From: a virus
IMG/VR virus record: IMGVR_UViG_3300019755_000015
Coordinates: 1-22,292 of that record
Length of the DNA: 22,292 nt
Strand: one strand, 5' to 3'
The notes beneath the pieces are model-generated. The model worked only from the letters and a program-made list of their open reading frames with translations, made no database searches and was not told where the DNA came from. Shown piece by piece: positions 10,434 to 17,904 of the stretch. The translations under genes were made by a program, and so were the position numbers. The first letter of the stretch is position 1. Every line of letters starts with the position of its first letter.

Positions 10434-10493
10434 TTAAGCACATATAAAGGAATAGGTGGGTATACTATGTTATATAAAGAAAGAGGAGTCAAT

Positions 10494-11132
10494 ATGGCTA
10501 GAATTAAAGATATAACAGGTCAGAGAAGCGGTAGAATAGAAGCAGTTAGGTTTTCACATAAGCAAGGTAAAAATGCTATGTGGTTATGTAAGTGTGATTG
10601 TGGTGAAGAGTATATAACCAGAGGTAGTAAAATAACTACTAAGGCAATAAAATCGTGTGGCTGTATAGCTAAAGAGAAGCAACATGGTATGTGTGGAACT
10701 AGAACATATAATGTGTGGGAAAATATGATAGACAGAACAACAAACGCCAACAATAAGAGCTACAACAACTACGGTGGTAGAGGCATTACAGTGTGCGAAG
10801 AGTGGAAAAATTTTAGAAACTTTTATGCAGATATGGGAGAACTTACTGATGGGTTAGATATAGATAGAATAGATAATGACAAAGGTTACAGTAAAGATAA
10901 CTGTAGACTAATAACTAGAAGTGAGAACTTAGAAAATACTAGAAGAAGTAAATGGTGGTATATAGATGGTGTTAGGTATGAGTCTAGCACGAAGGCTGCT
11001 GAAGCATTAGGTAAAGATGTTTCGGCAATAAACAGAATGTGTAATGGTTACACACATCCATACAGTAAAAATTGGATACCACCAAAAGATAACTGCTATG
11101 TGGAACTAAAGTATAAAGGAGGTACTAAATGA
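10494..11132 (+). CDS. Free-standing HNH homing endonuclease
   Basis: A mobile DNA endonuclease of the HNH family, 212 residues from the chosen ATG. That start has AGAGGAG at 10482-10488 and gives MARIKDITGQRSGRIEAV, the usual opening of these proteins; an in-frame ATG at 10467 would add nine residues but is spaced worse. An N-terminal zinc-binding region shows WLCKCDCGEEY and SCGC. The nuclease core has YNNYGGRGITVCEEWKNF and then LDIDRIDNDKGYSKDNCRL with ENTRRS, as in phage HNH proteins. A C-terminal helical segment (STKAAEALGKDVSAINRMC) resembles nuclease-associated DNA-binding modules. It sits between two lectin-like tail genes, and its stop overlaps the next start (ATGA) with AAAGGAGG at 11115-11122 inside its own 3' end. 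It appears intact. Confidence 0.88.
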   Translation: MARIKDITGQRSGRIEAVRFSHKQGKNAMWLCKCDCGEEYITRGSKITTKAIKSCGCIAKEKQHGMCGTRTYNVWENMIDRTTNANNKSYNNYGGRGITVCEEWKNFRNFYADMGELTDGLDIDRIDNDKGYSKDNCRLITRSENLENTRRSKWWYIDGVRYESSTKAAEALGKDVSAINRMCNGYTHPYSKNWIPPKDNCYVELKYKGGTK

Positions 11133-14832: not shown

Positions 14833-17800
14833 ATGAAAATAAATAAAATTAATAAGACCAAGCTACTAAAATCGTTCAAAGCTGACCTAAAAGCAAGCGA
14901 GCCGATGCATGACGACTTACAAGGTAAGATTGAAGGATGGATTAGTGCATACAACGGTGAGGCATACGGCAATGAGCAAAAAGGCAAGTCAGCTATTGTA
15001 TCAAGAGACATTAAGAAGCAAAGTGAGTGGCAGCATTCAACTATTATAGATCCGTTCGTAAGTGCAGTTGACATAATTAAAGCTACTCCGGTTACTGCAG
15101 AGGATGTAGAGTCAGCTAGACAGAATGAGCTAGTACTAAATACGCAGTTCTGTAGACAGTTCAATAGATACAACTTCATGACCAAAGCAGCTAAGGTACT
15201 AGATATGGAAGGTACTGCAGTTATACAATGTGGATGGGATTATGAAGATGAGGAAGTTGAGGTAGAGGTACCAATTATCGGAAGAATGCCAGATGGATCA
15301 GAGATGATACTAGGTACACAGACTGTAATGGAAACTAGAATAATTACTAATAAGCCAACTGCTGTAGTATGTAGAAATGAAGATATATACATTGATCCGA
15401 CTTGTATGGATGATATGGACAAGTGTCAGTTCGTTATATATAGATACGAGACTGATATGAGTACGTTAAGACAAGATGGTAGGTACAAGCACTTAGATAA
15501 GGTAGCTAAAGGTTCGTTAGGGGAGAATGAAGTAGACTTCGATAGTGAAGATGAGACTGAGTTCAGATTCGAAGATGATCCAAGAAAGAAGAAGGTTGTA
15601 TACGAATACTGGGGTAACTACGATGTAGATGGTGATGGGATTACAGAGCCGATAGTATGTACATGGATAGATGACGTAGTTATTAGATTAGAAGATAATC
15701 CGTACCCAGATGGTAAACCACCATTCATAGTAGTGCCATTCAATAGTGTACCGTTCCAGATGCACGGTGAAGCTAATGCAGAGTTCATAGGCGACAATCA
15801 GAAGATCAAGACAGCAATTACTAGAGGTATTATTGATAATATGGCTCAAAGTAATAATGGACAGAAAGGTATCCGTAAAGGAGCACTTGATGTAGCTAAT
15901 AGACGTAAGTTCATCAATGGTGAGAACTTCGAGTTCAATGGTACACCTAATGACTTCTGGGATGGTAGCTACAATAGTATACCAGGAAGTGCATTCGATA
16001 TGCTAGGTATGATGAATAATGAGATTGAGTCAATTACTGGAGTTAAGTCATTCAGTGGTGGGATCAGTGGTAACTCACTAGGAAATATGCTAGATATTCT
16101 AACAGATATACCAATGGTTGATGGTAGCTTCAAAAAGCTTGCACATATTGTAGACGGCGATACCATAGTAGGATCAGACGGTAACGGTACTAAAGTACTC
16201 AAAGCTCATGATATTAAATACCCTAAAATAGCCTATGATATGGCTTTCGATAATGGGTCAGTAATTAAGTCAGGTGGTGAGCATCTATGGACAGTAAAAG
16301 TGCACGGAACTAGTCACAAGTTAAGAGACTGGACTACTATGGACGCAGACGAAGTATACAAGCATATGCAAAAAGGTAGACGAGTTACAATACCTGCTAT
16401 GAAAGAGATGAGAGCAGGTAAGTCTACAGGTAATTCAATAGATCCGTATGTACTAGGTGTCTGGTTAGGTGACGGAATGAGTCACTCTGCTAGAATTACA
16501 ACAGAGGATATAGAAATAGTAGAGTACTTCAAGGAAGTAGGGTATATATGTGTCGAAGTTAAAGATAGCTCTAAGACAGGTAAGGCTAAGATGTACGATG
16601 TGTACAAAGAAGGATGTACACCAAGCAGGAATTCAGAGACAGGACAATTTGAGTCTACTGGATCGCTGCATAGTGAGCTTAGGGAGCTAGGTCTACACAA
16701 GCGTTACGGAGGAGAGAAACACATACCAGAGGAGTATTTCACAGCTACGTACGAAGAGAAGATGGAACTCATTAGAGGGTTGATGGACAGTGATGGCTAC
16801 GCGCATAGCGGGGCGTTCGTACAGTTTGCACAATCAGAGGGAAGACTAAAAGACGATGTAATCAGGCTAATTGAATCACTAGGATTGAAGGCTAGTATAA
16901 TAAGAAGAGATAAGGATGCTAAAAATAAACAAAAGATGACACTGCACGAAAAGACCGGTTGTAGGTTAATCCTAGCTACTAAAGATAGTTATGAGATAGG
17001 GTTTACTCCTTGGAGTAATCCATTCAAACTACCTAGAAAAGCTGATAAGTGGAAGACACCAAGAAGGCATACTGTAGCATTAAAAAGTATGAGTGTTACG
17101 GATAAGGTACTAATGAGATGTCTTACAGTAGACAGTGATGACAAACTGTTCGCAGTGACAGATAAGTTTACACTAACACACAATACTGCTACAGGAGCTA
17201 GAGGAGCACTTGATGCAACTAGTACAAGAAGGCTGAACATCGTTAGGAACATCAGTGAGAACTTAGTTAAACCACTAATGAGAAAATGGATGAGCTACAA
17301 TGCAGAGTTCCTAGATGACATAGAAGTAGTTAGAATGACTAATAACGAGTTCGTTGAGATTAGAAGAGATGACTTAGAAGGTAACATCGATATTGAGATT
17401 ACAGTTAGTACTAATGAAGATAACGCAGCTAAAGCACAAGAGATTACATTCATGCTACAGACTCAAGGTCAGAGTATGAGTGAAGAGATGCAGTACAAGA
17501 TGCTAGCTCAGTGGGCAGACTTAACTAAGCAACCAGAACTAGCGCAAGAGTACAGAAACTGGCAACCACCTCAACCAACTGAAGCACAGATGAGAATGGA
17601 AGCAGCTGCAGTAATGAAAGCAGAGCTAGAGAATGAGAAGCTAAAAGCAGAGATAGCTGATAGATACGCAAGAGCCGGTGAAAATGAGATAGACGCGTTT
17701 GCCAAAGAAGCTAAAGCAAGAAAAGAAATGGCAGCTGCTCGTAAGATAGATAGTGAGGCAGATAGAATTGACTTAGATTTCCTTGAGAGAGACAGTGGAG

Positions 17801-17904
17801 TAGCTCATGCAAGAAAAATGGAAGAGAAAGAGTTCGACAGAATGAGTAAGCTAGACGAGAAAGCATTCGATGCAATGTATAACAAGAAAGAAGGAAGTAA
17901 GTAA
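14833..17904 (+). CDS. Portal protein containing an in-frame intein
   Basis: Dodecameric ring at the head vertex through which DNA enters and leaves. The precursor is 1023 residues; removing the intein (residues 419-784) leaves about 657, a normal size for a podovirus portal. The N-terminal part has helices and the conserved core VYEYWGNYDVDGDGITEP, PFIVVPFNSVPFQMHGEANAEFIGDNQ, and GIIDNMAQSNNGQKG. The intein splits the conserved stretch GISGNSLGN / TATGARGALDA. The C-terminal 110 residues are a long charged coiled coil (KAELENEKLKAEIADRYA onward), as expected for a barrel/crown extension. AGGAAG at 14822-14827 serves the ATG and promoter P4 precedes it. The stop overlaps the next ATG as TAATG. 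A functional portal requires splicing. Confidence 0.9.
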   Translation: MKINKINKTKLLKSFKADLKASEPMHDDLQGKIEGWISAYNGEAYGNEQKGKSAIVSRDIKKQSEWQHSTIIDPFVSAVDIIKATPVTAEDVESARQNELVLNTQFCRQFNRYNFMTKAAKVLDMEGTAVIQCGWDYEDEEVEVEVPIIGRMPDGSEMILGTQTVMETRIITNKPTAVVCRNEDIYIDPTCMDDMDKCQFVIYRYETDMSTLRQDGRYKHLDKVAKGSLGENEVDFDSEDETEFRFEDDPRKKKVVYEYWGNYDVDGDGITEPIVCTWIDDVVIRLEDNPYPDGKPPFIVVPFNSVPFQMHGEANAEFIGDNQKIKTAITRGIIDNMAQSNNGQKGIRKGALDVANRRKFINGENFEFNGTPNDFWDGSYNSIPGSAFDMLGMMNNEIESITGVKSFSGGISGNSLGNMLDILTDIPMVDGSFKKLAHIVDGDTIVGSDGNGTKVLKAHDIKYPKIAYDMAFDNGSVIKSGGEHLWTVKVHGTSHKLRDWTTMDADEVYKHMQKGRRVTIPAMKEMRAGKSTGNSIDPYVLGVWLGDGMSHSARITTEDIEIVEYFKEVGYICVEVKDSSKTGKAKMYDVYKEGCTPSRNSETGQFESTGSLHSELRELGLHKRYGGEKHIPEEYFTATYEEKMELIRGLMDSDGYAHSGAFVQFAQSEGRLKDDVIRLIESLGLKASIIRRDKDAKNKQKMTLHEKTGCRLILATKDSYEIGFTPWSNPFKLPRKADKWKTPRRHTVALKSMSVTDKVLMRCLTVDSDDKLFAVTDKFTLTHNTATGARGALDATSTRRLNIVRNISENLVKPLMRKWMSYNAEFLDDIEVVRMTNNEFVEIRRDDLEGNIDIEITVSTNEDNAAKAQEITFMLQTQGQSMSEEMQYKMLAQWADLTKQPELAQEYRNWQPPQPTEAQMRMEAAAVMKAELENEKLKAEIADRYARAGENEIDAFAKEAKARKEMAAARKIDSEADRIDLDFLERDSGVAHARKMEEKEFDRMSKLDEKAFDAMYNKKEGSK
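16087..17184 (+). mobile_element. Class 3-type intein with LAGLIDADG endonuclease
   Basis: In-frame insertion of 366 residues (portal precursor 419-784). The N-terminal region MLDILTDIPMVDGSF and IVDGDTIVGSDG follows block A of inteins, but the first residue is Met (or Asn if one residue earlier), not Cys or Ser. Block B is SGGEHLWTV with His at precursor 484 and Trp at 486; block F is MRCLTVDSDDKLF with Cys at 763; block G is FTLTHN with Thr 782, His 783 and Asn 784, followed by Thr as first residue of the C-extein. Trp, Cys and Thr in these places are the WCT signature of class 3 inteins. Two LAGLIDADG motifs, LGVWLGDG (541-548) and LIRGLMDSDG (646-655), indicate a homing endonuclease. Its acidic residues look intact. 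Confidence 0.88.

Follow-up and report, generated by a model that had tools for sequence, protein, structure and literature searches.

A portal gene interrupted in frame by 366 codons raises the question of what the insert is, how it would leave the protein and how it came to lie there. The gene belongs to a podovirus-like phage, the source of the 22,292-base IMG/VR record IMGVR_UViG_3300019755_000015, which is called the window here. An earlier note on this DNA had read the insert as an intein of class 3, a rarer kind of intein, with the Trp, Cys and Thr (WCT) set of that class. In our study, computed alignments, the residue spacing of the MchDnaB1 intein and a confident structural model agreed with that reading. 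The insert is best explained, and very probably correctly, as a class 3 intein of full length that contains a LAGLIDADG endonuclease, splices from the Cys of block F and behaves as a homing mobile element.

The interrupted portal gene and its empty alleles

The precursor matched the Pfam family PF23899 (SU10_portal, E 2.8e-137) on both sides of the insert and over nearly its whole length, and the PHROG portal family phrog_1216 (E 3.5e-180). The exteins thus match the SU10/N4-type portal family, and the nearest annotated portals were found in the Alteromonas phage AD45 (62.5% identity) and in N4-like phages. The G+C content of the insert was 40%, equal to that of the exteins. Removal of the 366-aa insert from the ORF leaves a predicted spliced portal of 657 aa, the approximate size given in the earlier note, and the tryptic peptide across the predicted spliced junction is SFSGGISGNSLGNTATGAR. 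The features of the gene are listed in Table 1.

Table 1. Position of the portal gene, its exteins and the intein features in the window.
Feature	Position	Strand	Basis or remark
Portal precursor CDS	14833..17904	+	ORF, 1023 aa (657 aa after predicted splicing); PF23899, phrog_1216
N-extein, 418 aa, ends ...GGISGNSLGN	14833..16086	+	82 empty-site relatives; L008/L009 DNA alignment
Class 3 intein, 366 aa, Met1 to Asn366	16087..17184	+	Precursor residues 419-784, in frame
Block B His66-Leu67-Trp68 (H = B:10, W = B:12 of WCT)	16282..16290	+	Invariant H66/W68, 69 inteins
LAGLIDADG (DOD) homing endonuclease domain, residues ~118-290	16438..16956	+	PF14528 3.9e-07 (LAGLIDADG_3), PF05204 1.4e-05 (Hom_end); PI-SceI fold
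Asp129 in WLGDG, first endonuclease motif	16471..16473	+	Alignments
Asp236 in MDSDG, second endonuclease motif (Asn in L007)	16792..16794	+	Alignments
Block F Cys345 (F:4), predicted initiating nucleophile	17119..17121	+	69/69 and 97/97 inteins
Block G Thr364-His365-Asn366; Asn predicted to cyclise	17176..17184	+	Alignments
C-extein, 239 aa plus stop	17185..17904	+	ORF; empty-site relatives
+1 Thr, first C-extein residue	17185..17187	+	Alignments; pairs with DEV gp80 Thr490

The junction was surveyed in related portals from IMG/VR and two phage records, a sample with 82 empty and four filled sites. The empty sites that the earlier note expected in portal homologues were therefore present in at least 82 related loci, most of them gapless at the junction or within 2-3 residues of it. 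The nearest empty allele, L008, has extein halves 97% and 91% identical to those of the window, whereas in L009 the halves are 96% and 85% identical, and the DNA of both showed about 91-92% identity with the joined flanks of the window. The junction reads ...SGNSLGN/TATGARG... (the slash marks the insertion point). As the boundary is set by the empty alleles, residue 1 (Met) and the +1 residue (Thr) are fixed independently of any intein motif, and the absence of Cys or Ser at the first position, as claimed before, is borne out. L008 and L009 carry local differences at the insertion site; these may reflect resistance to cutting or have no meaning, and other bins vary as much.

None of 50,697 phage records covered at least 80% of the precursor, so that these records yielded no isolate carrying the portal intein. 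Bacterial and archaeal genomes were also searched, and no close relatives turned up. The annotated portal of Pseudomonas phage vB_Pae575P-3 (KX171209, L001:1399-4044, 881 aa) was examined as a carrier and rejected, its insert being an internal tandem duplication and a likely assembly error.

Three PHROG profiles named 'terminase large subunit' (phrog_36964, phrog_15 and phrog_19299) include intein sequence and match the portal insert. Automatic annotation can therefore mislabel genes that bear inteins, and intein-bearing portals are easily mis-annotated in this way. The window phage contains a second kind of mobile element, a free-standing HNH endonuclease gene at 10467-11132 (+) among the tail-region genes (phrog_374, 1.9e-64).

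Splicing signature and predicted fold

Membership of class 3 depends, according to Kelley et al. (2016; PMC5050341), on the residues at B:12, F:4 and G:5 and on the lack of a nucleophile at A1. The portal insert was found to contain Trp at B:12, Cys at F:4 and Thr at G:5, and its terminal Asn366 is followed by Thr at +1. The first position is occupied by Met both in the window and in the remaining same-site portal copies, so that none has a Cys, Ser or Thr nucleophile there; the Cys or Ser that marks class 1 at this position is absent. In the numbering of the precursor, the residues W486, C763 and T782 correspond to W68, C345 and T364 of the intein. Their assignment to blocks B, F and G, made earlier from motif positions, held in the computed alignments (17/17 and 69/69).

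W68, C345 and T364, as well as H66, His365, Asn366 and the +1 Thr, shared columns in 17/17 phage inteins, hosted by phage TerL, DnaB, SNF2-type and other helicases, RecB and PhoH. Because a computed alignment gave the same columns in every one of these inteins, the WCT motifs are not due to chance. Across a larger set of 69 aligned inteins, H66, W68, C345, T364 and N366 were invariant; the Cys and Thr were absent from all scan patterns behind this set, whereas the Trp was partly selected for, since the patterns favoured H[LM]W. The block F Cys was present in 97/97 class 3 inteins, a set whose ORFs had to contain H.W and THN, so that the Cys alone is tested there free of selection. In MchDnaB1, the class 3 triad is formed by Cys124, His65 and Thr143, with Trp67 (PMC7664689), and the spacing from Cys to Thr is 19 residues in both MchDnaB1 and the window intein.

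The AlphaFold2 model of the intein, built on a 69-sequence alignment, reached a pLDDT of 95.1 and a pTM of 0.90 (a 5-sequence alignment gave a pLDDT of 53). The predicted model has a HINT fold like that of the solved class 3 inteins, which were its best mini-intein matches: 6bs8 with Z 20.7 and an rmsd of 1.4 A over 126 residues, and 6rix/6riy with Z about 20 (6rix 20.1). The other mini-inteins followed with Z 18.3 for Prp8, 17.2 for gp41-1 (class 1) and 16.3 for Ssp DnaB (class 1). Over its full length the model matched PI-SceI with Z about 25.

Class 2 inteins also have no nucleophile at residue 1 (PMC5222942), and Met1, which excludes class 1, would equally suit a class 2 or other non-class 3 route in which the +1 Thr attacks directly. 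The probability of such a route is close to negligible, as the Cys of block F, the Trp of block B and the Thr of block G are all present and invariant, and the splicing domain of the predicted model is nearest to class 3 structures. In the class 3 route, Cys345, His66 and Thr364 would form a triad, aided by Trp68, from which the Cys attacks the peptide bond between Asn(-1) and Met1 to give a branched thioester at block F. From there the chain would be transferred to the +1 Thr and Asn366 would cyclise, so that the exteins would be joined as ...SGNSLGN-TATGAR... in the 657-aa portal. Splicing, the order of its chemical steps, the block F intermediate and endonuclease activity are what we infer from the conserved anatomy; a strong likeness to class 3 is no proof that the window copy is active.

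Endonuclease, same-site relatives and spread

A LAGLIDADG homing endonuclease, absent from the earlier note, was found within the insert. Both DOD motifs retained their acidic residues (WLGDG and MDSDG), and the match to PF14528 was above the cut-off. The intein evolves under constraint (purifying selection): compared with the intein of L004, identity at the three codon positions was 82/84/49% and dN was 0.18, and dN ranged overall from 0.18 to 0.31. As synonymous sites were saturated, no dN/dS ratio is given.

Nine further portal loci were filled at the same junction (L004-L007, L109, L111, L112, L113 and L203). L004, L005, L006 and L007 showed 62-76% identity. L111, L112 and L203 are divergent SU10-family portals, with exteins 20-27% and inteins 39-46% identical to those of the window; 14 relatives of the L112-type portals possess the exact empty site, DADALNK/TATG or TASG. 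A single intein lineage thus occupies a homologous site in portals that share only 20-27% identity. The intein of L007 (L007:4001-5065) contains MDSNG in place of MDSDG, an Asn for the Asp of the second motif, and its endonuclease is probably inactive, judging from this substitution. In L113 (L113:3501-3983), the insert is a 161-aa mini-intein from which the endonuclease is cleanly absent while the splicing residues are kept. Decay and loss of the endonuclease are therefore visible in L007 and its sister L113, respectively.

Such decay raises the possibility that the window insert is a decayed passenger, an intein of class 3 type which no longer splices or cleaves while the portal is supplied otherwise. 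The family does decay, as the lost catalytic Asp of L007 and the lost endonuclease of L113 indicate. However, neither the window nor any relative has lost a splicing residue, save for the penultimate His365, which is replaced by Ser in L203 (LTSN/T; L203:3501-4550), and all 366 codons read through without a stop, under strong constraint. Phages normally have one portal gene, which is essential, and no further portal copy was found in the 22-kb record, itself a fragment. A decayed passenger is accordingly highly improbable, and a class 3 intein that still splices remains the preferred reading.

In a tree of 97 class 3 inteins, the ten portal inteins formed one clade with 100/100 support. On the extein tree of 73 portals, seven carriers needed seven changes, the same number as random labels. 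One intein clade with a scattered presence on the portal tree therefore points to horizontal spread, and the pattern, as read from these sequences, fits homing between phages and not inheritance with the portal. The endonuclease would cleave intein-free portal genes at the site and the intein would be copied in. Full-length, endonuclease-damaged, mini and empty alleles coexist at this junction, so that a class 3 homing cycle and its spread become testable in a virion protein.

Class 3 inteins were also found at another site in P22-type portals (L117/L119 and L235; PF16510). These form a separate clade within a mainly terminase part of the tree, and class 3 inteins have therefore invaded portals at least twice. 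A terminase ORF (L114:3075-6662) appears to contain two inteins, a class 3 intein at residues 143-508 and another with a second Hint domain at about residues 598-872.

Position in the portal channel and comparison with known inteins

The empty allele L008 aligned with the Pseudomonas phage DEV portal gp80 (PDB 9bgm) at 4e-154, gapless around the junction, and the +1 Thr of the window aligns with Thr490 of DEV. In the DEV portal the channel is reported to be tightest at Thr490, where it measures about 26 A (PMC10925440). By sequence alignment, the intein is therefore placed at the channel constriction, where an unspliced 12-mer would carry twelve domains of about 41 kDa each. Splicing would precede a working portal and would have to be efficient. 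The site is consistent with the view that inteins are retained where their inexact removal would be lethal; the intein would persist as a mobile element in a place where such loss would ruin the portal channel.

The same location allows a further reading, which would extend the class 3 explanation and not replace its chemistry, in which conditional splicing (for example through the redox state of Cys345) times ring assembly and the intein is a regulator and not a passenger. Mycobacterial class 3 DnaB inteins are reportedly responsive to oxidative stress (PMC6195587), and the insertion lies at the predicted constriction. However, the intein is sporadic in near-identical portals and is therefore dispensable, and conditional splicing of this kind has a slim chance of being correct. 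As a post-translational timer, which we consider very unlikely, twelve unspliced inteins at the constriction would block ring assembly or DNA passage; head formation would then be gated by splicing and would await the right chemical state of Cys345. The case for such an assembly switch, a long shot, is one of location. A mobile class 3 intein, spliced out before the portal works, remains the favoured explanation.

The class 3-like hosts among the 120 phage matches listed were mostly terminases, helicases, other ATPases and exonucleases, and none of these 120 was annotated as a portal. A full-text search limited to papers open without subscription, and so not covering Tori and Perler (2011), returned no account of a class 3 intein in a portal. 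For the mycobacteriophages of cluster C1, six portal inteins have been reported (Kelley et al., 2016; PMC5050341). The earlier suggestion that a portal host widens the range thus stands for class 3, which is new in a portal, whereas portal inteins as such were already known. The window intein is of no new kind but extends a known class to a new host protein and a new insertion site; with it, a structural, non-ATPase protein joins the hosts of class 3 inteins.

The C1 portal genes of Tyke, ET08 and Cane17 contain inserts at two sites, which begin with Cys and have no block F Cys and therefore belong to class 1. They share the host protein with the window intein but differ in class, in their two other sites and in the portal family. 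PI-SceI, the yeast VMA intein, is alike along its full length in combining HINT with LAGLIDADG, whereas it is of class 1, starts with Cys1 and resides in the vacuolar ATPase. The class 3 inteins of phage TerL, SNF2/helicase, RecB and PhoH have the WCT set, the THN/T end and a DOD endonuclease in common with the portal intein, at about 27-33% identity. Those examined lie mostly at or near the ATPase P-loop, whereas the portal copies form their separate 100/100 clade, and the window intein is preceded by Asn at -1 in place of the Lys at most P-loop class 3 sites examined. The mycobacterial DnaB class 3 inteins (MchDnaB1, 6rix; MsmDnaB1, 6bs8) resemble it in the WCT residues, the triad spacing, the HINT fold and the lack of a residue 1 nucleophile; they differ in their helicase host, whereas the window intein has a portal host, a homing endonuclease, Met as the first residue and Asn at -1.
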